A stretch of 64,000 nt of DNA, from assembly GCA_028692715.1 (NCBI GenBank), contig JAQUWU010000006.1, positions 96,074-160,073 of the forward strand, read 5' to 3'. The notes beneath the pieces were generated by a model. It saw only the letters and a program-made list of their open reading frames with translations. It searched no databases and was not told the DNA's origin. Position numbers and translations under genes: made by a program. Numbering within the stretch: position 1 is the first letter of the stretch; every line of letters starts with the position of its first letter. Source of the stretch: Paludibacter sp. GTDB lineage: Bacteria; Bacteroidota; Bacteroidia; Bacteroidales; Paludibacteraceae. This document shows positions 52,581 to 63,943 of this stretch, one piece after another.

Positions 52581-53522
52581 TCACAAATTCAATTCTTCTT
52601 TGAAATAAGCAATGGTTTTTATCAACCCTTCTTCGAGTTGAATATCCGGGCTCCAATGATTTAACAATTTATCAGCCTTGCTAATATTTGGTTGACGTTG
52701 TTTCGGATCGTCCTGAGGCAAATCCTGAAAAATCAATTTTGATGTTGAATTTGTAAGTTCAATTACTTTTGTAGCCAATTCCAACATTGTAAATTCATTC
52801 GGATTTCCAATATTTACCGGCCCTATAACCGATTCATCGGTTTTCATCATTCGTATCATACCTTCTACCAAATCATCAACGTATTGGAAACTTCTTGTCT
52901 GTAAACCATCACCAAAAATTGTAATATCCTGACCCTTCAAAGCCTGAACAATAAAATTAGAAACAACACGTCCATCACCGGGATTCATGCGTGGACCATA
53001 AGTATTAAAAATACGAATAATTTTAATTCGCACGCCATTCTGACGATGATAATCCATAAAAAGAGTTTCAGCGCAGCGTTTTCCTTCGTCGTAACAAGAG
53101 CGGATACCGATAGGATTTACATTCCCCCAATATTCTTCGTATTGTGGATGCACCGAAGGATCACCATACACTTCACTGGTAGAAGCCTGTAAAATTTTAG
53201 CTTTTACACGTTTTGCAAGCCCTAACATATTGATAGCTCCCATCACCGAAGTCTTTACAGTTTTAATTGGATTGTACTGATAATGAATAGGTGAAGCCGG
53301 ACAAGCGAGATTGTAAATCTCATCTACTTCTGCCATATAAGGCGTTGTAACATCATGACGAACAAATTCAAAATATCCGTTTCTTAAATTGTGCTCAATA
53401 TTTTTACGTCTACCGGTGAAAAAATTATCCAAACAAATCACTTCGTTTCCTTCTTTTAAAAGTCGGTCGCACAGATGAGAACCAATAAATCCCGCACCTC
53501 CTGTAATAAGTATTCTACTCAT
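52581..53522 (-). CDS. UDP-glucuronate decarboxylase (UDP-xylose synthase)
   Basis: Extended SDR of 313 residues converting UDP-glucuronate to UDP-xylose. ATG 53522 is chosen over one 16 codons upstream because the Rossmann motif [12 protein letters not shown] then starts at the usual residue 5. Family signatures are [55 protein letters not shown] with the Tyr/Lys pair, and [22 protein letters not shown]. It supplies a pentose donor for the surrounding polysaccharide locus. Confidence 0.9.
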
Positions 53523-53643
53523 AATGTTATATTTTAGTATGTTATATTTTTGAAATACATTAATTATCAAACAATCTAATGATTGACAAATTAAGGTTGC
53601 TAAATTACAAATATTTTTTTAAAAGAATAGAAAAATACTGATT

Positions 53644-54525
53644 TTAATCACCCTTCAATCCCAAACTTCTACCTCCATCCACAATAAAATTTTGTCCTGT
53701 GATAAAAGAAGCTTCATCTGAAGCTGCAAAAGCTACCATGTTAGCAATATCTTCTGGTTTCCCATAGTCATTCATATAATTGGTTTGTTTGATACGTTCT
53801 AGTTTGCTGAAATTAATAGCATCACGCTGAACAATTCCCGGTGATACACAATTCACATTAATACCGTATTTTCCTAACTCCATTGCAAGCGATTTCGTGA
53901 AAACAATAACGGCTCCTTTACTCGCAGCATATTCAGAATAGCCGGCCTTTCCCTGAGTGCCAATTGAAGAACTAATTGTAACAATTTTGCCTGAATTTTG
54001 AGTCATCATTTGCTTTGCTGCGTATTTTGTGCAAAGTATTGTTCCAATCAGGTTTACATCAATCACGTCCTTAATTATGTCCGGATCTTGATCTGCAATA
54101 TTGTTGTTCTTTTCACGCGCACTTCCTCCGGCACTTGTAACCAACACATCAATTTTTCCTGATTCAGCAATTACTGTATCAAAAAAATGTTGAATACTAT
54201 CTTTGTTACTAATATCTATAATTCCCGGAAAAGCACTTCCACCTGCTTCACGAATTTCATTAATAACGGCTGACAATTTACTTTCTGTGCGACCGCACAC
54301 ATATACTTTTGCACCTTCGGAAGCAAAGCGGAAACAAATGGCTCGTCCAATAGCTCCCGACCCACCTGTCACAACCACTACCTGACCGTTAAACCGACCT
54401 TTCTTGTTGATGTTTATATTATAAGGTCGGGTAACATTAATGACTTCAAAACGTTTTAAAACGCTTTCCTTCATCTTCTGTCGGAATCCCGATGGTAATA
54501 TTTTTTTTAATAACTTTTTTAGCAT
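53644..54525 (-). CDS. Short-chain dehydrogenase coupled to the MenD-like gene
   Basis: Protein of 293 residues. A 45-residue basic N-terminal extension precedes the SDR domain, with VVVTGGSGAIGRAI and the catalytic YSEYAASKGA. NAD(P) specificity is not clear. It lies three bases after the MenD-like stop, so translation is coupled. It may reduce a keto product of that enzyme (inference from context). Similar SDRs occur in many pathways, so the product name is general. Confidence 0.85.
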   Translation of the reverse strand: MLKKLLKKILPSGFRQKMKESVLKRFEVINVTRPYNININKKGRFNGQVVVVTGGSGAIGRAICFRFASEGAKVYVCGRTESKLSAVINEIREAGGSAFPGIIDISNKDSIQHFFDTVIAESGKIDVLVTSAGGSAREKNNNIADQDPDIIKDVIDVNLIGTILCTKYAAKQMMTQNSGKIVTISSSIGTQGKAGYSEYAASKGAVIVFTKSLAMELGKYGINVNCVSPGIVQRDAINFSKLERIKQTNYMNDYGKPEDIANMVAFAASDEASFITGQNFIVDGGRSLGLKGD

Positions 54526-54528
54526 ATC

Positions 54529-56262
54529 TTATCGTTTAAAGAAATTATTTAAAATCTTACCTGCTTTTCTTTTTGCTTTATCAGCAAGTGTCACTCTGTT
54601 AATTTCAGCCATATATTTTTTATAAACAGCTGCATCTTCATCTATTGTAGTAAATACTTCCAATAACACAGGACCATCAATTTTCATATCAATCAACATC
54701 TCAATTCCATTGTCAACACTTTCCTTATCGGTGGCTGAAATATACTTCATTCCTATGGATTCGACCCACCCTTTGGCTGAAGTTATATGTCCGGCAGAAG
54801 TGTGTTGAACTAATACAGGTCCCATATCGTTTCCAAAAGGCAAGTGCATAACCGCTCCACCCTGATTATTCACCAATAAAATTCTGATATTTTTTGATAA
54901 ATGACGATTCCACAACGCATTCATATCGTAAAAGAAAGTGAGGTCACCAATAATCAGAAAAACAGGTTGTTCCGAAGTTGCTGCATATCCCACTGCGGTT
55001 GACATACATCCGTCAATTCCATTCACACCTCTATTGCAATAACATTTGATAGATTCATCAATATCAAATAAATGTCCAATGCGTATAGCACTGCTATTTG
55101 ATAGCTGTAGCACTGAGTTTTGTGGTAGTTGATTTATTAATTTACCGATGGAATATACCTGACTAAACTCCACTTCTGGCTTGGTAATTGTTTCCGAAAT
55201 TTCATTCCATCTATCAAAATAGCTATTATCAGTGGCTTTTGAATTTTCGGCTGTCATTATTTCGAAGAATGCTGCTTCGTTCATTTCGAACATTTCGGTC
55301 AATTTATGAAATGCATCGCAAACAACATTCTCCGGACCAATCTGCCAATTATCCATATGGGACGCATTTCGATTCAAATAATCTTTTATTTCGCTGTTAA
55401 AAATAATATTTCCACCCAGCGTAAGTACAACATCAGGCGAAAGTTCTGCCTGTTCGTTTAAAGTCATTGCTTTGAGGACAACAAAGGAGTTGAGGATAGC
55501 ATTTGGGTGCAAACAATTGGAGATTCTGTCAGTAATAATAACACAGTTGTACATTTCGCAAAATTTGTTCAACGCCTTATCCAAACGTTCAGTATATTTT
55601 ACGGATTGTCCCCAAACCATCATAATTTTTTTGCCAGTAAGTTTTTTTCTGAATTGCGACCAGATTTCAGGATCTTCATCAGCTTTATGACAGGTTATTT
55701 TCCTTACTACAGGAAGTTCGGTCAATTGAAATGTATCCGATTTATGTTCAAAAATCGGATAATTAAGTTGAACGGGCCCTGCACCTGTATGATTTAATTC
55801 AATCAATGCTTCATTTATAATTCTGTTGGCATACCATTCGTCCAAATCAGTTTTTATAAGTGGTAACTGTCCGTGGTATTTTATAAATTCATGAAACATA
55901 TTATCCTGTCGCATCATTTGATCTTCCTTTTGACCCAATAATTCGGGAACACGATCAGCCGTAAGTAGTAATAACGGTAATTTCTGATAAAAAGCTTCAC
56001 TCACTGCCGAACCGTAGTTTGCCACCGATGTTCCTGACGAACAGCAAATAGCAACAGGTTCGTTGCTTTCCTGAATTAAACCCAACGCAAAAAATGCGGC
56101 ACTTCGTTCGTCAACAACCGAAAATGGTTGAAAGAATGGGTCATTTTCAATGGAATGACTCAAAGGGAAGTGACGTGACCCCGGAGAAATAACAATTTTG
56201 CGAATATTATTGGCTTTCAACAAAAAAAGTATATGCTGTAGAAGTTTGTTATTTGAATACAT
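54529..56262 (-). CDS. MenD-like thiamine-diphosphate carboligase in a glycan locus
   Basis: ThDP enzyme of 577 residues. SPGSR (26-30), DERSAAFFALGLI with the cofactor-activating Glu52, NRGVNGIDGCMSTA and GDLTFFYDMNAL match MenD, the SEPHCHC synthase of menaquinone synthesis. The C-terminal third differs from canonical MenD (NNQGGAVMHLPFG rather than the usual Gly-rich FSFLP pattern). No other men gene is nearby. Between a flippase and an SDR it may instead join a 2-oxoacid to a sugar. Menaquinone synthesis remains possible. Confidence 0.75.
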   Translation of the reverse strand: MYSNNKLLQHILFLLKANNIRKIVISPGSRHFPLSHSIENDPFFQPFSVVDERSAAFFALGLIQESNEPVAICCSSGTSVANYGSAVSEAFYQKLPLLLLTADRVPELLGQKEDQMMRQDNMFHEFIKYHGQLPLIKTDLDEWYANRIINEALIELNHTGAGPVQLNYPIFEHKSDTFQLTELPVVRKITCHKADEDPEIWSQFRKKLTGKKIMMVWGQSVKYTERLDKALNKFCEMYNCVIITDRISNCLHPNAILNSFVVLKAMTLNEQAELSPDVVLTLGGNIIFNSEIKDYLNRNASHMDNWQIGPENVVCDAFHKLTEMFEMNEAAFFEIMTAENSKATDNSYFDRWNEISETITKPEVEFSQVYSIGKLINQLPQNSVLQLSNSSAIRIGHLFDIDESIKCYCNRGVNGIDGCMSTAVGYAATSEQPVFLIIGDLTFFYDMNALWNRHLSKNIRILLVNNQGGAVMHLPFGNDMGPVLVQHTSAGHITSAKGWVESIGMKYISATDKESVDNGIEMLIDMKIDGPVLLEVFTTIDEDAAVYKKYMAEINRVTLADKAKRKAGKILNNFFKR

Positions 56263-56267
56263 AAGCT

Positions 56268-57815
56268 TTATTTTTTATTGTTAATACTGAGTTTATTTGA
56301 AATTATGGATTTTATTTTACTGATAATAAATGTACGTTCATCTTTGTTGAGCCCGATAAAGTAAACTGAACTTAACACTGAAAGAACGCTTACAATACAA
56401 ACGACTAAGAGTCGGATAAAACCTGGCTGCATAAAATAAGATGCAAGAAATGGTAATATCAACGCCACTACTCCAACTAATAATACCAAAAGAACTACTT
56501 CTAAATAATATTTTCGAACAGGCAGTTGTACCATTGTTCTCAACATTTGAAGTCTAACTTGCATTGCAAACAATGCTATAAAAATACCAATTGTCATGGT
56601 AATTTGAGGTTCGAAACCCAAATACAAAAACAAAATAGATAAAGGTAAATTCAGAATAGTAACACTCCCTACAATAATCTGGTATTTACGAATTTTTCCC
56701 GTTGCAAACATTGTCTGAATCAATGTTTTGGACATAGATTCAATAATTGAAATAATCAACACCAACCGAACAAAAATAACAGTGTAGTCTGGTACATTTT
56801 TCAACCATAATTTCAGAATATATTCGGTTTCGGTTAAAATAGGTAAAGTCAGGAAAAAAACCAGAAAAAATGCATATTTACTTCCACTGAAAACCAATTT
56901 GAAAAGATATACTTTATCATTTGCCGCATAACTTTTGGTTATTTGCGGGTTTAACGCCATCAGAAAGTTATTTGTAAATTGGTCAACAGCTGATTTTACC
57001 TGATTTGTAATTCCCATAGCCGCATTCACAATGGTTCCAAAAAACAGGTTCAAAACAATATTTATTCCCTGAGTTCGAATCATAGTAGAAGACACTCCGA
57101 TCAGGTTCCAACCGGCAAAAGACATCATTTCTTTAAACAATTTTTTATGCCATTCCCATTTAAAATTGGCTTCGGCAAAATGCCTCTTGGAATATGTTCC
57201 ATAAATAATTCTAAGGACAACCGAAACGCCAAAAGTAAGTACGGCATACAATTTCAACTTATCAAAATCGAACCAGGTAACTGAAAATGCTACAAAAAGC
57301 TTTAAAGTTACTTCGACAATACTTATCACAGCAAATGCCTGCATGTGTTCGTTGGCAATAATTACAGCATCGTAAGGAACACTCAAAATGGTGACAATGA
57401 AGGCAAAAATCGAAAATTGCAATACCCAATTTGCGGCTTCCATTCGAGATGGATCGATATTCATTTTAGCATTCAAAAACCAAACACCAATAGTTTCGAG
57501 CAATACAAAAACAATAGCAGCAATAAAAAAATGAATAATGACGCTGGTATTGAAAATATCGTTGAGACCTTTTGGATTTTTTCGTCCTATTTCAAAATTC
57601 ATAAAACGCTGAACAGCAGTAGCCATTGTGGTATTTATTGATGAAAACATCATTACCACACCACCAATTACATTGTAAATTCCATATTCGCTTATTCCCA
57701 ACACGTTAAGCACTACACGCGAGGTATAAAGTGCAACTGCCATGGTAAATATCATACGGATATAAAGCATCATGGAATTTTTTGCAATACGATTGCTGTT
57801 TTTACTTTTGTCCAA
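56268..57815 (-). CDS. Wzx-type polysaccharide flippase
   Basis: Polytopic membrane protein of 515 residues with about 12-14 helices. The N-terminus (KNSMMLYIRMIFTMAVALYTSRVVLNVLG) and ISEYGIYNVIGGVVMMF are typical of the oligosaccharide flippase family. It should flip lipid-linked repeat units to the periplasm. It overlaps closely with the MenD-like gene (5-base gap) and the GT2 gene (24-base gap). Confidence 0.88.
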   Translation of the reverse strand: MDKSKNSNRIAKNSMMLYIRMIFTMAVALYTSRVVLNVLGISEYGIYNVIGGVVMMFSSINTTMATAVQRFMNFEIGRKNPKGLNDIFNTSVIIHFFIAAIVFVLLETIGVWFLNAKMNIDPSRMEAANWVLQFSIFAFIVTILSVPYDAVIIANEHMQAFAVISIVEVTLKLFVAFSVTWFDFDKLKLYAVLTFGVSVVLRIIYGTYSKRHFAEANFKWEWHKKLFKEMMSFAGWNLIGVSSTMIRTQGINIVLNLFFGTIVNAAMGITNQVKSAVDQFTNNFLMALNPQITKSYAANDKVYLFKLVFSGSKYAFFLVFFLTLPILTETEYILKLWLKNVPDYTVIFVRLVLIISIIESMSKTLIQTMFATGKIRKYQIIVGSVTILNLPLSILFLYLGFEPQITMTIGIFIALFAMQVRLQMLRTMVQLPVRKYYLEVVLLVLLVGVVALILPFLASYFMQPGFIRLLVVCIVSVLSVLSSVYFIGLNKDERTFIISKIKSIISNKLSINNKK

Positions 57816-57839
57816 AATTCACTTTTTAAAAGGTGTAAA

Positions 57840-59012
57840 TTATGCTCTTTTTGCTCTTTCCCAATTTACGCTTTGCGATTTCTTCAGATAGCGTCCAAAT
57901 CCCATAAATACGGCGTAATTCATAATAAAGAAATAATACGGTATAAAAAAGATTTTCACTTTCAGTTTTTTGTTTTCGAGCAACCAGCCTGTTAATGCAA
58001 AAACATAAAACAAAATTTGTAATATTAAAATCACTAAAAACGGAGTTGAATCTGTTGCTAAAACAATGTTTACAAGTAAAATAAGTAATAAACAGAGTGG
58101 TGTAATGGTCCAACGCAAAACCCTGTGCGATATGTATTGGAACGAAAGAATACCGTACTTAAAAATATTCAATAAAGGATAAAGTCGTACAACGGATTGT
58201 ATGCCTCCTGCAGCAATGCGTATTTTTCGTTTAAGTTCTTCTTTCACATTTGCCGAGGCAGTTTCAATAGCATACGCCTCCGGATCGTAATCAATTTTGA
58301 AACCACGCATTGCAACACGAAGCGAAATAATAAAATCGTCAAGCAAAGTATCGGGTTCCACTTCGTTGTACAATTCAGTACGAATAGCAAAAAGCTCACC
58401 CGCAGCACCTACTGCCGAGTATAGTTCAGCATCCCAGCGTTTTAATGCCGATTCATATTTCCAGTAAAGACCTTCGCCTGCTGCTGAGGCAGCTTCCTCT
58501 TCGGCATTAAAAATGCGTTTTTCGCCCGACACACAACCCACTTTCGGATTACTGAACATCTGTGCAATTTTCATGATAGATTCTTCGCCCAACAAAGTAT
58601 TTGCATCGGAAAAAATAACGATGGGCGTTTTCACAAATTTAATTGCACGGTTCATAGCGGCAATTTTTCCGTTTCTCTCTGGTTTGTGCAACACTTCAAC
58701 ATCACCATATTCTTTCAATAAATCAGGTGTATTATCGTTCGAACCATCTGTAACCCAAATTTGATGCAATTTCTCTTTTGGATAATTCAGTTTTCGGGTA
58801 TTTTCAATTTTATTTTTCACATAATCCTGTTCGTTGTAAGCTGCAACCAAAAGAGTAACTTCCGGCAAATCTTTCTCAGCTAAAAGAACGTTTGATTTTT
58901 TTGAAAAAATACGTTTTATTCTCAACAAAACATATAATACCAATCCGTAACCCAGGTATGTATAAATAATAATTCCGGCTAGAATCCAAAAAATGACGAC
59001 TAATGTATCCAT
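57840..59012 (-). CDS. GT2 glycosyltransferase, membrane type
   Basis: Protein of 390 residues with an N-terminal helix, a cytosolic GT-A domain (VTLLVAAYNEQDYV, WVTDGSNDNTPDLL, VIFSDANTLLG, DDFIISLRVAMRGFKI) and three or four C-terminal helices. The layout resembles poly-GlcNAc and cellulose-synthase-like transferases, but the RKIRIAAGG stretch replaces the canonical QxxRW motif. It probably adds a sugar to the lipid-linked unit. A poor repeat-rich gap separates it from the pyruvyl-transferase-like gene. Confidence 0.85.
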   Translation of the reverse strand: MDTLVVIFWILAGIIIYTYLGYGLVLYVLLRIKRIFSKKSNVLLAEKDLPEVTLLVAAYNEQDYVKNKIENTRKLNYPKEKLHQIWVTDGSNDNTPDLLKEYGDVEVLHKPERNGKIAAMNRAIKFVKTPIVIFSDANTLLGEESIMKIAQMFSNPKVGCVSGEKRIFNAEEEAASAAGEGLYWKYESALKRWDAELYSAVGAAGELFAIRTELYNEVEPDTLLDDFIISLRVAMRGFKIDYDPEAYAIETASANVKEELKRKIRIAAGGIQSVVRLYPLLNIFKYGILSFQYISHRVLRWTITPLCLLLILLVNIVLATDSTPFLVILILQILFYVFALTGWLLENKKLKVKIFFIPYYFFIMNYAVFMGFGRYLKKSQSVNWERAKRA

Positions 59013-59118
59013 AATATTATTTTTTAATGATAACTATTTTTTATGATTATCCGCAAAAGTTCCTAAAAAACACTGATTTACAAAAATTTTTCTTTTTCAA
59101 AAATAAAAATTTTCTTTC

Positions 59119-59189
59119 AACCACTAATTTCACGAATTAACACGAATTACGAACATTTATTTTTGTGTGAATTCGTGTAATTTGTGGTT
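59119..59189. repeat. Interspersed inverted repeat (CACGAATT type)
   Basis: The left arm near 59119-59149 (AACCACTAATTTCACGAATT...) and the right arm near 59164-59189 are imperfect reverse complements. This CACGAATT-rich inverted repeat is a common Bacteroidota intergenic element. It sits in the 276-base gap between GT2 and the pyruvyl-transferase-like gene. Confidence 0.6.
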
Positions 59190-59288
59190 CATTTTTTTAT
59201 CATTTATTGAAAACATACATATTTGAAGTCTATTTTTCAAGTATTATTTGTTTCAATATTGAAATAGAATTCATTGTGTATAGTCATT

Positions 59289-60422
59289 CTATTTTTTTAA
59301 GGCTGTATTTAAATAATCGTACACCTTTTCGCATTCGATAATTAACTTTTCTTCAAAACCTGAATAATCAATTTTAAGCACTTCCTCAGGATTTGTGTTG
59401 TTTGAGTATTTTCGATCTTTAAAATGAAAAGTGCTCAACAATGTATCAATTCTGGATGACATGGGTGCGCTTTTTCCTTCTCTGTCGAAAATAAGGAAGG
59501 GTTTACGCATTTGCATCGAAAAAATAGCCGAATGAAACGAATCAGTACAAATTAAATCGGCACAATGAATGTAATCTATGAATTCGCCAGGATTTGCATC
59601 GTAACGATCAAAATCTTCAAGATTTTTTAAATGTATAATTTCCAGAAAATTCTTGTCAGCAAGCTCTTGTAGTGCTTTTTTCCTTTTGGCCGATAATGCA
59701 CCAATAAAATAAGTGAGTAAGTATTTTGATTTCGGTTTCATACGGGCAGGTTCAGCCACTTTTAACCATTGTTCGGGCGTCAACATTAATGTCGGGTCGA
59801 TTAAAACTGGTGCTTCTCTCCCTGTCAACTTTTTAATCAACTCCGCTCCTGCCCCTTCGCGAACCGAAAGAAAAGCCATTTCTGAAATCCATTTAGAATA
59901 GAGTACTTCATACTTTTTAGCAATAGTGGAAACGCCAAAACTTGGTGCCAATGCAATACGTTTTTCCTTTGGTGCAAAAGTCAGAAAATCGACAGATGAG
60001 CCGTATCGGATATTAGGATTCCAGATTTGATCGCTGCCCACCACAAAATAATCATATCGCGAACCTAAATCATAAGGAATATCATTTGTTGTCACCACAA
60101 AATCAGTTTCATCAATATGCTTAGTATTGTATTTTCTAAATGAAAGGTCTTTTGCTTTCTGTCCGGCAAGATATTTTTCCCGATTCCGTTTTTCCTGAAT
60201 TTTTTCTATTCCTTTTTTAAATAGTGTAACCGGACTTTGCTTCAATGCATTTATCAACCTACTTTTTAAACTCAGAATTTCATCATTTCCTTTTATGGGA
60301 TAATTCACAATAGATTCTACCTCAAATCCCATTGATTTAAGTATTTCCTGCGAAGCGTAATTTTGTAAACGGTTTCCGTAGTTTAGGTAGTCGGTGATTG
60401 TAATTATTCCTATCTTTTTCAT
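59289..60422 (-). CDS. Polysaccharide pyruvyl transferase family protein
   Basis: Protein of 377 residues with no signal peptide. It has the family opening IGIITITDYLNYGNRLQNYA, the conserved VVGSDQIWNPNI, and a late IHCADLICTDSFHSAIFS with the characteristic DSFHS. These enzymes add a pyruvate ketal to a sugar, though many members have other or unknown roles. It fits decoration of the surface polysaccharide. Confidence 0.88.
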   Translation of the reverse strand: MKKIGIITITDYLNYGNRLQNYASQEILKSMGFEVESIVNYPIKGNDEILSLKSRLINALKQSPVTLFKKGIEKIQEKRNREKYLAGQKAKDLSFRKYNTKHIDETDFVVTTNDIPYDLGSRYDYFVVGSDQIWNPNIRYGSSVDFLTFAPKEKRIALAPSFGVSTIAKKYEVLYSKWISEMAFLSVREGAGAELIKKLTGREAPVLIDPTLMLTPEQWLKVAEPARMKPKSKYLLTYFIGALSAKRKKALQELADKNFLEIIHLKNLEDFDRYDANPGEFIDYIHCADLICTDSFHSAIFSMQMRKPFLIFDREGKSAPMSSRIDTLLSTFHFKDRKYSNNTNPEEVLKIDYSGFEEKLIIECEKVYDYLNTALKK

Positions 60423-60538
60423 ATATTTTTGTTTTTAAGATACTAGAGCCAAGACAAAAGATTAAAGATTAAAAACATTTTTATAATCCTTTATTTTGAA
60501 AACTTGTTTCCCAATTTATTATCATAATAAGCATTTTA

Positions 60539-61480
60539 TCATTTCTTAAATTTCCGAATTTTATCTCTTACTTTTATTGCAAAATGTCTTAGTCCTGGGA
60601 GGTATTTTCCGCTTTTCATATTGTACATTAACGATTCAGAGTTAAAAATCATTTCGAAATTTTCAGTGCAAAGTACCGGTTTTTTAGTTATTCGATTTAT
60701 TTCAATTGACTGACTCAGGGAGCTTTCGATAAAAAGAATATAATTTCCTGATTTATAGGTATTGGCTTTATGCTCGGCATGACTGTTTGCTTTCTGGCGG
60801 GCTTCTTTGTTGGGTAAATCGAGCATCACCAGTTGGTTGTATTTTACGTTGTTTTTTCCCAACCAGCTTTCCGTTTCTTTGCGGTATTTCTCCAAACGTG
60901 AAGTAACAATTGTTCCAATTTTACTGCCCGGAATAAACAATGCAGGAGCATTCAGACAGAAATCAATGTATTTTGGACCATCATCATTTTGTTCTTCAGT
61001 CGGGTCTATACATAAAACACCGTCAATATCGAAACAAGCTTTCTCAAGAGTGGTATGATTAAAGATATTCCATTGAAAATAACGGGGCAGCGGAACTTCT
61101 TCGAAAAAATAATCCACCAATTTTTCTTTTCCCGGTATTACATAAATGGCGCAATAGCTTATATCAAAATCTTTATTCAGATCTTTCAGCATTTCTTTTG
61201 ATTTTAGCATAGCTGAACCGGAAGCAATGCTATCGTCGACCACCAATATCTTTTTAAACTGCTTAATATCAAAAAATTGTCCCCTTGCTCCTGCTTTATA
61301 AATATGTCCATTTAGGAACGAATGAATATCGGTGTAAGGACGATTTAAGTAAAGTGCCAACAAGTTTGCAGGCAACATACCACTACGTGGAATGCCAACT
61401 ATTAAATCAAAATCGCGAGGGATTACATTCAATTTTTTAAGAATAATTTTATTTAAGTCCGAAATATTCCTGTAATACAT
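60539..61480 (-). CDS. Phosphoribosyltransferase-HAD fusion protein
   Basis: Protein of 313 residues with two domains. Residues about 20-130 are a type-I phosphoribosyltransferase with FDLIVGIPRSGMLPA and the PRPP-binding loop KILVVDDSIASGSAM. Residues about 150-260 resemble a HAD-like fold opening with ACFDIDGVLC, although the usual later HAD motifs are hard to place. Such fusions appear in glycan clusters. It may make or process a phosphoribosyl donor for the polysaccharide, but the reaction is unknown to me. Confidence 0.75.
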   Translation of the reverse strand: MYYRNISDLNKIILKKLNVIPRDFDLIVGIPRSGMLPANLLALYLNRPYTDIHSFLNGHIYKAGARGQFFDIKQFKKILVVDDSIASGSAMLKSKEMLKDLNKDFDISYCAIYVIPGKEKLVDYFFEEVPLPRYFQWNIFNHTTLEKACFDIDGVLCIDPTEEQNDDGPKYIDFCLNAPALFIPGSKIGTIVTSRLEKYRKETESWLGKNNVKYNQLVMLDLPNKEARQKANSHAEHKANTYKSGNYILFIESSLSQSIEINRITKKPVLCTENFEMIFNSESLMYNMKSGKYLPGLRHFAIKVRDKIRKFKK

Positions 61481-61535
61481 ATTCTTGATATTTAATTAGT
61501 TAATCTCAATTTATTTTTCTCTTTAAACCAGACAC

Positions 61536-62714
61536 TCAAATATTTTTTTCTATAATATTGCCGAAAAGTTCTGTTCGGGCTTCCCACGAATTAGAGGCCG
61601 CAAAGGCTATTCTTGCTTTTATCTTTTCGGGAGTATCTGTCTGAGTTTCAATTTTTAATTTCTCTACAAAATCATCTATGCTATGCGATACGGTTACCAA
61701 TCCTTCAAATTCCGGTAAAATGGCAAAAGGTGTCATTACTAACGGCACACCAACTGCCAAATATTCGTTTATTTTCAACGGATAGATATTCCTATTTACC
61801 TCATTTACAATGTATGGTATAATTCCCACATCGTAAGTTGCCAATAATTCGGGAACATCATTGGGTTTTATCGGATCAAAAAACTTTACGTTTGGATATT
61901 TGCTTAAACGAGCTTTCAGTTGTTGGTTTCGAGGGTCGCCTGTAAATTCAAAATCAAAATCAGAAAGCGCTTTTACAGCAGTTTCTACTGTTTCAATATC
62001 AAATCGAGGATCTAAACTACCAATAAAACCTACTTTTTTACGATCACGTTTAAATACTTCCTTTTTGCTGAATTTTTCAAATACCGGAAAATCAACTCCA
62101 TTTTTCACCACATGACTATTCACATTTATGCTGAGTTTCTGTTTATTTAAAAAATCGGAAGTGGTAATGATTGTTTTTACTTTTTTTGAAAAGTTATCTT
62201 CATAATCAAAAATTCTTTTCCCGAAGAAACCTGATTCTACGCCATCATAACAATAATAAATATGAGCTTTCTCTTTTAATTTATTTAATAGCGATAATCC
62301 GTAAAATGGATTATAAGCAGTGACAATAATCGGATTATCAAATTTCAGTTTCTTTATAGTTTTCTTCAATGAAATTTTGTAAATCAACACGTTAATTCCA
62401 AAGAAAAAACGAAACAATTTTTCATTTTTAAGAAAAAAAACAGGAATTCCGGGAGGAGTTACCAAATTGTAAACCTTGCTACCTACGCTTGAATCAATAA
62501 GTTGTAACCTTTTTTTGAATCCCACCATACGTGCTGCAGGAGCATTTTGTTTGCCCCTTAAAGTGGAAAGAATATCTTTTACTGTATAAGGATATTCGAC
62601 AAATAAAACCCGGTTATTTAATGCCAAACGTTCCATAATTTGTACGGTAGATTTGGCATAATTTCCAAACCAACTCGTATTAGCTATACAAATGATATTT
62701 TCCCCTTTTAACAT
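61536..62714 (-). CDS. GT4-like glycosyltransferase
   Basis: Cytosolic GT-B protein of 392 residues. The Rossmann-like second half includes KKVGFIGSLDPRFDIETVETAV, VKFFDPIKPNDVPELLATYDVGIIPYIVNEVNRNIYPLKINEYLAVGVPLVMT, the region that binds nucleotide-sugar in this group. The N-terminus ENIICIANTSWFGNYAKST is typical of TuaH-like transferases. It lies 6 bases after the next GT4 gene, so both are cotranscribed. Confidence 0.85.
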   Translation of the reverse strand: MLKGENIICIANTSWFGNYAKSTVQIMERLALNNRVLFVEYPYTVKDILSTLRGKQNAPAARMVGFKKRLQLIDSSVGSKVYNLVTPPGIPVFFLKNEKLFRFFFGINVLIYKISLKKTIKKLKFDNPIIVTAYNPFYGLSLLNKLKEKAHIYYCYDGVESGFFGKRIFDYEDNFSKKVKTIITTSDFLNKQKLSINVNSHVVKNGVDFPVFEKFSKKEVFKRDRKKVGFIGSLDPRFDIETVETAVKALSDFDFEFTGDPRNQQLKARLSKYPNVKFFDPIKPNDVPELLATYDVGIIPYIVNEVNRNIYPLKINEYLAVGVPLVMTPFAILPEFEGLVTVSHSIDDFVEKLKIETQTDTPEKIKARIAFAASNSWEARTELFGNIIEKNI

Positions 62715-62720
62715 GAGTCT

Positions 62721-63866
62721 TTATCTTTTTAGTTCGTTATAAACTTCTGTATACAAAGCAAGGTATTTTTCGGCCATTACTTTCCACGAGAATTGTTTTG
62801 CACGCTCAATTCCTTTCAAACTGAGTTTATTTCTAAAATCCGTATCATTCAAAATTTTCTCGATGGCTGTTACAATTTCTGTTGGCTTTGTAGGGTCAAC
62901 AATTACAGCTGCATCACCTGCAATTTCTGGCATAGATGAGGTGTTTGATGTTATCACAGGAACGCCACATGCCATACCTTCGAGAATAGGGATTCCAAAA
63001 CTCTCGCGAAGTGAAGGATAAAGAAAAACTTTACATTGATTAATAATGGTAGGCATTTCGGCATTTGGAACATAACCGGTCATTACAATATCTTTTCTGA
63101 TTTCGGTATGCCCAATATCTGACAAGACCTGCATCAATGCATTTTCCTCGTAATCGAGCATCACCAATTTATATTTCAGTTCCGATTTTGCATTGAATAA
63201 AGCAAAAGCTTTCAATGCATTCGGCGTATTTTTCTTCGGATCGGTATTTCCTAAAAAGAAAAGAAAATTATCGGGTAAATTATATTTTTGTTTTGTATTT
63301 TCAAGTATTGTTTTGTCCTCAATTTTCTGAAAATGAGTTCCTACACCATTATAAATTGCTACCAGATTTTCGCCTAAATGCATGAAGTTTTTAATTCTTT
63401 TCTTCTCAAATTCCGAAACGGTAACTACCCGTTTACTGTTTCGGGCAACAGCTGGAACAACCCAACGGCGGTACATATTGCCAAATTTCTGATACAAAGT
63501 ACCTGATTTTTTAAAAATGCTGACACTTTCGAGATAGATAATATCATGTAAAGTAGTAACTACCGGAACTTCACACCAAATAGGAGCTGTATTACTGGTG
63601 CAATGTAACATATCACAACCTTCATTCAAAGCAGCTTTAGGCAGGGCAAATTGTTCCCAGGTAGGATAGGGACCGCCATTTAATTCCACAATTTTAAAAT
63701 TGGCAGTATGTGGAATACAAGTATTATCTTCATCGGGTTTTACGAATACCACATATTCATTTACCTTATCAATAAGTTGAAGATTTTTTATCAACTCAAG
63801 AGCCACCATATCCATTCCATGTTTTTTTGTGCGGTAAAGTCTTTGTCCTTCTATGCCAATTTTCAT
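62721..63866 (-). CDS. GT4 glycosyltransferase, mannosyltransferase-like
   Basis: GT-B protein of 381 residues. ATG 63866 is chosen because the 22 codons upstream lie in a C/T-rich palindromic repeat rather than coding sequence. The protein starts MKIGIEGQRLYR and has FLFFLGNTDPKKNTPNALKAF, the VFLYPSLRESFGIPILEGMACGVPVITSNTSSMPEIAGDAAVIVDP acceptor/donor signature with the E-x7-E motif, typical of GT4. It is the first gene of the visible operon, and transcription may enter from beyond the right edge. Confidence 0.9.
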   Translation of the reverse strand: MKIGIEGQRLYRTKKHGMDMVALELIKNLQLIDKVNEYVVFVKPDEDNTCIPHTANFKIVELNGGPYPTWEQFALPKAALNEGCDMLHCTSNTAPIWCEVPVVTTLHDIIYLESVSIFKKSGTLYQKFGNMYRRWVVPAVARNSKRVVTVSEFEKKRIKNFMHLGENLVAIYNGVGTHFQKIEDKTILENTKQKYNLPDNFLFFLGNTDPKKNTPNALKAFALFNAKSELKYKLVMLDYEENALMQVLSDIGHTEIRKDIVMTGYVPNAEMPTIINQCKVFLYPSLRESFGIPILEGMACGVPVITSNTSSMPEIAGDAAVIVDPTKPTEIVTAIEKILNDTDFRNKLSLKGIERAKQFSWKVMAEKYLALYTEVYNELKR

Positions 63867-63879
63867 GTGAGTTGTTTTT

Positions 63880-63943
63880 AAACCCCCTAACCTTGACCTC
63901 ACCCCAACCCTCTCCATTAGGAGAGGGAGCAAGAGGGGGAATA
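63880..63943. repeat. CCCTCTCC-GGAGAGGG palindromic repeat
   Basis: CCCTCTCC-ATTA-GGAGAGGG is a perfect 8-bp hairpin near 63909-63928, within a C-rich then G-rich stretch. It is a typical Bacteroidota interspersed repeat just upstream of the GT4 start, and could act as a terminator for transcription arriving from the right, separating operons. Confidence 0.6.

Follow-up and report, generated by a model that had tools for sequence, protein, structure and literature searches.

A MenD-like Thiamine Diphosphate Enzyme Paired with a Short-Chain Dehydrogenase in Glycan Gene Clusters of Paludibacter and Other Bacteria

A MenD-like Gene between Dehydrogenase and Flippase Genes

The DNA analyzed here, hereafter the window, is a stretch of 64,000 nucleotides from a Paludibacter sp. 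genome (GenBank assembly GCA_028692715.1, contig JAQUWU010000006.1, positions 96074–160073), and our subject is a run of three minus-strand genes in the glycan gene cluster near its end. These encode a classical short-chain dehydrogenase/reductase (SDR) presumed to be a ketoreductase (53644–54525; 293 amino acids; PF13561 and PF00106), a MenD-like thiamine diphosphate (ThDP) enzyme presumed to be a 2-oxoglutarate-using carboligase (54529–56262; 577 amino acids), and a Wzx-like flippase of the polysaccharide export family (56268–57815; 515 amino acids; TTG start) that scores 23.8 bits against PF01943, under the cut-off of 28.2. The initial annotation of this DNA had recognized a ThDP carboligase, a dehydrogenase, and a flippase packed tightly together, and our computations agree on both counts, with three bases separating the SDR gene from the MenD-like gene and five separating the latter from the flippase gene. 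The trio recurs in the related locus L031 at 74–81% identity and in looser form across phyla, and thus does not appear to be a chance arrangement. We lean, with modest confidence, toward the interpretation that the MenD-derived carboligase attaches a four-carbon unit, taken from 2-oxoglutarate, to a precursor of the glycan, after which the SDR reduces the ketone.

Family and Active Site of the MenD-like Protein

The window's MenD-like protein scores 292.6 bits against the curated MenD model TIGR00173 (cut-off 244.2), and the solved structures closest to it are MenDs. As first described, its cofactor motifs are kept (Glu52, equivalent to Glu55 of Escherichia coli MenD, and Gly439-Asp440). All 50 matches listed by Foldseek for its AlphaFold model (mean predicted local distance difference test score, pLDDT, 86.3) are MenDs; the template modeling scores of about 0.4–0.54 and root mean square deviations of 17–19 make the domain orientation of this single-chain model unreliable. 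Membership among acetolactate-synthase-like enzymes was rejected, as acetolactate synthase models reach only 18.8–24.5 bits against cut-offs of 538–970. A phosphonopyruvate decarboxylase, a type known from capsule loci, finds no support either: neither the enzyme's own model nor phosphoenolpyruvate mutase is among the listed matches of nine window genes.

Relatives were collected by a contig scan, from which the best 80 of 249 loci were taken, together with loci of related genomes (L-numbers denote collected loci, G-numbers genomes, and C68 a contig of the window's own genome). A locus was classed as canonical if menF or menB lay within 5 kb on the strand of the MenD gene and as MenD-like if neither did, which yielded 27 full-length MenD-like proteins, the window's included, and 62 canonical MenDs. 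The absence of menF and menB from that range in 27/27 loci therefore follows from the definition of the set; the rule has no bearing on partners, residues, or clade. L022, which shares a contig with L031, and fragments shorter than 480 amino acids (L026) were dropped, and L110, with no men neighbor in view, was manually counted as canonical (it has the canonical residues apart from Arg in place of Lys at 292). The 27 come from Bacteroidota, Clostridia, Akkermansia, and one spirochaete; record names on the Bacteroidota side include Paludibacter, Sphingobacterium, Draconibacterium, Bacteroides, Phocaeicola, and Prevotellaceae, and further names include Clostridia, Clostridium, Ruminococcus, Hungatella, Muricomes, Lachnospiraceae, Akkermansia, and Spirochaetaceae, among others.

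In E. coli MenD numbering, used for the residues that follow, the equivalents of the ThDP, magnesium, and catalytic glutamate residues E55, D442, N469, and I418 are present in 27/27 MenD-like proteins. Likewise kept in 27/27 are Ser391, Arg395, and Arg413, whose Listeria equivalents hold the carboxylate of the 2-oxoglutarate-derived intermediate (PMC12312563); Arg395 is replaced by Tyr in 4 of the 62 canonical MenDs. On the isochorismate side, with residue roles taken from PMC12312563 and PMC9835592, the MenD-like proteins retain Gln118 throughout (27/27), Arg33 in 22/27, Arg107 in 21/27, Phe475 in 19/27, and Ser32 in 7/27, and Leu478 in none; Lys292 is likewise found in 0/27, at a position near which the alignment is least certain and whose role is borrowed from a nearby Listeria residue. 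Pro108 is missing from all 27 too. Among canonical MenDs, S32, R33, R107, and Q118 are each present in 62/62, F475 in 61/62, K292 in 58/62, and L478 in 55/62 (Ile in six). Glu116 is fixed in all MenD-like proteins, and position 117 is Asp or Glu in 25 of them. The window copy has lost Pro108, Lys292, Phe475, and Leu478; the first three of these are present in the canonical MenD of the same genome and in 17/17 further canonical MenDs from two phyla, and the residue pattern is uniform in the 18 canonical MenDs aligned together (Bacteroidota and the Clostridia-type phylum).

A Second MenD and the Menaquinone Pathway

The initial annotation had proposed searching for a second, canonical MenD accompanied by menF and menB, and such a gene lies on contig C68 between menF and menB. 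Its product is 32% identical to the window's MenD-like protein across the matched region, and the menB beside it is the sole menB match of the genome; the window's gene is thus one of two MenD-type genes in its genome, and the circumstance named in the initial annotation as refuting its reading, a sole MenD with the rest of the pathway complete, does not apply. As had also been noted, no men gene is near it: none is found among the nine genes at 52581–63932, which were scanned with a family library, the rest of the window being viewed as a list of open reading frames (ORFs).

Men genes were searched for in the genomes of 21 of the 27 carriers, many of which are draft assemblies. A menB over the cut-off is present in 5/21, and exactly these five have two TIGR00173 proteins over the cut-off. 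Each of the other 16 has one such protein, whose coordinates are those of the MenD-like locus in 16/16; named isolates among them are Muricomes intestini DSM 29489, Clostridium sp. KNHs205, and Sphingobacterium olei. A menB-like match at E 0.001 occurs in 10/21 carriers, five of these below the cut-off, and isochorismate synthase exceeds its cut-off in 3/21, with L033 just below (223.0 vs. 224.75). Outside the 21, the genomes of the window, L031, and L023 have a canonical MenD, and L035, L041, and L045 lay outside the test. The canonical MenD on another contig and the 16/21 carriers without menB or a second MenD over the cut-offs agree with the earlier view that the window's gene does not serve menaquinone synthesis, and we rejected that role for it. 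TIGR00173 probably names the MenD-like proteins as MenD wrongly in most of the carriers tested.

Phylogeny and Distribution

Phylogeny, which had been suggested as a means of telling the two types apart, does separate them. In a rapidly computed maximum-likelihood tree with 53 rows, in which 23 of the 62 canonical rows were used and the root was placed on E. coli, the 27 MenD-like proteins and two divergent proteins, referred to below as subfamily II, form one clade (Shimodaira–Hasegawa-like approximate likelihood ratio test, SH-aLRT, 99). Subfamily II branches from within the 27, and the clade adjoins the canonical MenDs of Bacteroides-type bacteria (support 93). Given that the E. coli root sits on a very long branch, the direction of the tree is likely, not firm.

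The distribution of the MenD-like type among related genomes is patchy, as it was recognized in 3/60 of them (the window's own, G002 with L031, and G024 with L023). Among 345 genomes of the same phylum, the window's own genome scores 849 bits and the next, G318 and G310, score 615 bits; their loci and four more (L116–L121; six of 29 fetched besides that of the window) have canonical residues, and L116 and L117 have menF and menB alongside. Among 299 genomes of the phylum of G065, L146 and L147 resemble subfamily II, in addition to G065 itself, and L148–L158 have canonical residues. In the first of these samplings the top matches were opened and three candidates were scored per genome, so that more distant members could be missed.

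Four subfamily II genes, which lie in glycan clusters, were examined: L113:7542–9287 from Bacteroides xylanisolvens (minus strand; 172.7 bits, under the TIGR00173 cut-off), L114:3549–5294 from Akkermansia (minus strand; 158.2 bits, also under the cut-off), L146:1486–3252, and L147:1489–3243. A dehydrogenase-type neighbor is present in 4/4, this being an SDR in L113, L114, and L147 and an epimerase-type protein in L146. The SDR gene precedes the MenD-like gene in L147; in L146 a flippase gene precedes it and the epimerase-type gene follows, an arrangement like that of L057. L113 has a flippase-like gene (MatE 23.0 bits, cut-off 24.9) and L114 a PF04230 gene. The proteins of L113 and L114 have lost Arg33, Arg107, Ser391, and Arg413, that of L146 keeps Ser391 and lacks Arg413, and that of L147 lacks both. 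Based on the loss of Ser391 and Arg413 in L113 and L114, the donor of subfamily II is probably a different 2-oxoacid.

The SDR Partner

A classical SDR of the window's type is found near 21/27 MenD-like genes. Among the 20 loci with a usable gene list, the SDR gene directly adjoins the MenD-like gene in 17 and is at most two genes away in every one; in a permutation test the mean number adjacent was 3.0, and 0/20000 permutations reached 17. (L050, in which an antisense ORF spoiled the gene list, was kept out of this test; its SDR is present all the same.) The SDR gene is upstream of the MenD-like gene in L034 and L036 and downstream in the others, a variation in position that suggests that the pair has been kept through rearrangement. 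Four of the six loci without this SDR encode another protein of an oxidoreductase family within two genes, namely an aldo-keto reductase in L023 and L035, a Gfo/Idh/MocA protein in L040, and an epimerase-type NAD protein in L057; a fifth, L045, stops at a contig end.

As controls we used 20 stretches of 9.0–19.0 kb from 17 related genomes, which surround every other member of the window's flippase family that scores over 200 bits. None of the 20 contains an SDR matching the partner-SDR profile at E 1e-5, so the SDR link looks specific, and none contains a MenD-like gene, the acetolactate-synthase-like protein of L222 matching the MenD-like profile at 37 bits. Two other candidate partners fared less well. 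PF04230 proteins occur in 22/27 MenD-like loci but also in 9/20 controls, and the idea that an aldo-keto reductase may replace the SDR is weakened by control locus L209, where such a gene (L209:9556–10443) directly follows a flippase gene of the window's family in a locus without any MenD-like gene. In 26/27 loci a flippase gene is found no more than 7.5 kb from the MenD-like gene, the remaining locus, L041, being cut by a contig end. These flippases fall into four sequence groups; the flippases of L039, L046, L050, L055, and L064, which belong to groups other than that of the window, pass the Pfam cut-off.

In the window's SDR (AlphaFold model, mean pLDDT 86.8), the catalytic residues Asn158, Ser186, Tyr199, and Lys203 and the glycine-rich cofactor motif (G54, G57, and G60) are invariant across 19/19 aligned partner SDRs, as are R137, R286, and L288. 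The alignment leaves out L050 and L037; in the latter the SDR is split over two ORFs (L037:9927–10605), which reflects either a broken gene or an assembly error.

Basic Tails on Both Enzymes

The C-terminal part of the MenD-like protein had been said to differ from that of MenD, and we find there an additional basic helix that has no counterpart in canonical MenDs (residues 559–576 in the AlphaFold model). The median number of residues past the last shared motif is 37 in MenD-like proteins vs. 14 in canonical MenDs, and the last 20 residues carry a net charge of at least +4 in 21/27 of the former vs. 9/62 of the latter. At its N-terminus the window's SDR has an additional basic stretch of about 44 residues with two predicted helices (2–9 and 12–26), and 17/19 of the partner SDRs carry a net charge of at least +4 in their first 20 residues. 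AlphaFold models both tails as helices at lower confidence than the cores. Basic ends were counted on other proteins of the same loci: neither end is basic in NDP-sugar epimerase-type proteins (0/7) or UDP-galactopyranose mutases (0/4), and basic N-termini occur in 1/3 nucleotidyl transferases and 1/5 UDP-glucose-dehydrogenase-like proteins. Judged from sequence and models, the tails of the MenD-like protein and the SDR suggest peripheral membrane binding and work at the membrane.

Proposed Mechanism and Alternatives

We propose that the MenD-like protein descends from a menaquinone enzyme and has changed its role. It would bind ThDP, decarboxylate 2-oxoglutarate as MenD does, and pass on the resulting acyl unit, which has four carbons and a carboxy group, to a carbonyl of an acceptor belonging to a glycan precursor. 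The SDR would subsequently reduce the ketone so formed or, acting first instead, would oxidize the acceptor, and the neighboring flippase would carry the finished unit out. The basic helix at one terminus of each enzyme suggests action at the inner membrane face, perhaps on a lipid-linked sugar. The initial annotation had suggested addition of a 2-oxoacid unit to a glycan followed by reduction; the association with glycan clusters and a reductase strengthens that idea, and the choice of donor can be narrowed, 2-oxoglutarate being the probable one and pyruvate less likely because the 2-oxoglutarate residues are kept in 27/27. More tentatively, and with doubt prevailing, we speculate that a MenD-derived family of two subfamilies with different donors builds acidic C-branched sugars on membrane-bound precursors, the four-carbon carboxylate of 2-oxoglutarate being joined by a C–C bond and its ketone reduced, to give a residue that would add +104.05 Da to its acceptor and that is of a kind not known from bacterial glycans.

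Several observations weigh against the proposed carboligation of a glycan precursor. The window's protein passes the curated MenD model, and its isochorismate side is partly intact, with Ser32, Arg33, Arg107, and Gln118 in place; retention of the first three is a point against a wholly new acceptor. The absence of menB from carrier genomes is not absolute, as these are often draft assemblies. No reductase was recognized among the genes checked in L038, the epimerase-type partner in L057 need not be a reductase, and the aldo-keto partners in L023 and L035 carry little weight because control L209 has one as well. The control loci are drawn from the genus and order to which the window belongs, and the profile used to find SDRs was itself built from the partner SDRs. 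A close UDP-glucuronate decarboxylase lies near 3/27 MenD-like genes (the window, L031, and L033) and is absent from the other 24, and no keto-sugar-forming gene is common to all 27 loci. The alternative oxidoreductases lack the basic extension. Basic C-termini also occur on family 2 glycosyltransferases (10/18) and in three flippase groups (7/10, 5/9, and 4/5), and a few other enzymes have basic tails as well; such a tail is no proof that a protein binds the membrane.

The decarboxylase in the window points to a related route, in which a C-branched nucleotide sugar would be made in solution in the manner of yersiniose: the decarboxylase would give a UDP-4-keto-pentose, the MenD-like protein would add the acyl unit at C4, and the SDR would reduce it. 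A gene of this UDP-xylose synthase (UXS) type directly follows the SDR gene in the window and L031 and is found in L033 two genes ahead of the MenD-like gene; EvdS6 releases UDP-4-keto-xylose, the proposed acceptor of a thiamine pyrophosphate-dependent acetyl branch (PMC10338323), and YerE, ErwE, and caryophyllose provide precedents (PMC12247030). We nevertheless judge this route improbable, given that the decarboxylase gene is found in only three of the loci, that its UDP-xylose may just feed a glycosyltransferase, and that the basic tails favor a membrane-bound acceptor; it is a special case of the mechanism we favor, and our confidences in the two overlap. About equally unlikely in our estimation is a donor other than 2-oxoglutarate, such as pyruvate or a hydroxy-2-oxoacid, with the rest of the mechanism as proposed. 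E. coli MenD also accepts (S)-4-hydroxy-2-oxoglutarate (PMC7696235), and donors have probably changed in L113 and L114, but Ser391, Arg395, and Arg413 are invariant in the subfamily to which the window belongs.

The kept 2-oxoglutarate residues and the reductase partner would also fit a decarboxylase without carboligase activity, which would convert 2-oxoglutarate to succinic semialdehyde for reduction by the SDR to 4-hydroxybutyrate, a decoration for the glycan; the changed acceptor side would then need no acceptor. Yet the nine window genes examined include no acyl-activating enzyme, and Glu116 and the acidic residue at 117 look selected rather than decayed, such that we consider this reading quite unlikely. 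The least credible of the alternatives is that the window's gene encodes a true menaquinone MenD, the second of its genome, that merely came to lie among glycan genes. The TIGR00173 score and the retained Ser32, Arg33, and Arg107 speak for it; the canonical copy with menF and menB, the 16/21 relatives in genomes without menB over the cut-off, the recurrent SDR partner, and the loss of Pro108, Lys292, and Phe475 speak strongly against it.

Comparison with Known Systems

The window's protein shares with MenD (SEPHCHC synthase) its fold, ThDP site, 2-oxoglutarate residues, and a score over the curated cut-off; it differs in lacking men neighbors, in having other partners, a changed acceptor side, and a basic C-terminal helix, and in belonging to its own clade. 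The partner SDRs share their fold and catalytic residues with classical SDRs of the FabG and glucose dehydrogenase type and differ from them in the basic N-terminal extension (17/19) and the invariant R137, R286, and L288.

The initial annotation had regarded the chemistry as undescribed for this type of gene set; however, yersiniose-type sugars are already known to arise by ThDP-dependent carboligation at a keto sugar and subsequent reduction, with enzymes of the YerE lineage as the carboligases (PMC12247030, PMC4753412). YerE adds a pyruvate-derived unit to CDP-3,6-dideoxy-4-keto-glucose (PMC12247030), and a later ketoreduction has been shown for Pau7 of paulomycin, an aldo-keto reductase (PMC4753412). 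The YerE-like enzymes of yersiniose, erwiniose, and caryophyllose resemble our proposal in 2-oxoacid decarboxylation, formation of a C–C bond to a keto sugar, reduction, and location in surface-glycan clusters. Of this setting, the window has the glycan cluster, and a UXS-type decarboxylase is near only 3/27 loci. YerE is an acetolactate-synthase-type flavoprotein (PMC4753412, PMC10338323), whereas the window's protein reaches only the low scores given above against acetolactate synthase models, which here stand in for YerE itself. In the EvdS6/eurekanate route of everninomicin a UDP-glucuronate decarboxylase similarly supplies a 4-keto-pentose for a thiamine pyrophosphate-dependent branch, but the branching enzyme is a pyruvate-dehydrogenase-like heterodimer that is itself hypothetical in PMC10338323. 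Our search of the open-access literature, with most subscription papers outside its scope, found among the results listed no paper that places MenD among glycan genes. Chemistry of this kind is known, and the enzyme lineage and predicted donor in a glycan setting are not described in the papers found.

Another genome of the same genus encodes an acetolactate-synthase-like protein (L222:1404–3122; 490.7 bits vs. a cut-off of 538.35) in a glycan locus with an epimerase-like gene alongside, as judged by eye; this protein may be of the known YerE type, so that both lineages may exist in one genus.

If the proposed mechanism is correct, a central enzyme of vitamin K2 synthesis was recruited, once according to the tree, into surface-glycan synthesis, and the recruited lineage now occurs across several phyla, in bacteria of the gut and of the environment. 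Branched acidic sugars of a new class would be predicted, and a 2-oxoglutarate-based C–C ligase for complex acceptors would be of use to chemists. Gene names would have to be corrected, since TIGR00173 MenD calls in genomes without menB over the cut-off would mislead predictions of respiration.

Other Genes of the Cluster

The window stops at the end of the 160073-base contig, and the glycan cluster is cut upstream of position 63932. All of its further genes examined are on the minus strand. The UDP-glucuronate decarboxylase of the UDP-xylose synthase type (52581–53570; phmmer match to UDP-glucuronate decarboxylase 1, 2b69, E 8e-123) is a possible source of a 4-keto sugar. On the other side of the trio lie a family 2 glycosyltransferase (57840–59012; PF13641 and PF00535), a PF04230 protein of the polysaccharide pyruvyl transferase family (59289–60422; 100.2 bits), a phosphoribosyltransferase-like protein (60539–61480; PF00156, with a weak match to purine phosphoribosyltransferases), a TuaH-like glycosyltransferase (61536–62714; NF047676 97.6 bits, under the cut-off of 550; PF13692), and a family 4 glycosyltransferase (62721–63932; PF00534), the final gene before the contig end. 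In the phosphoribosyltransferase-like protein, inspection by eye reveals the phosphoribosyltransferase-like domain followed by a haloacid dehalogenase (HAD)-like DIDGVLC motif, and in the gene lists of the 27 loci its sequence cluster holds the window and L031 only. There are capsule polymerases that use phosphoribosyl pyrophosphate (PRPP) and a phosphatase to add ribofuranose, and this protein could be a stand-alone form.

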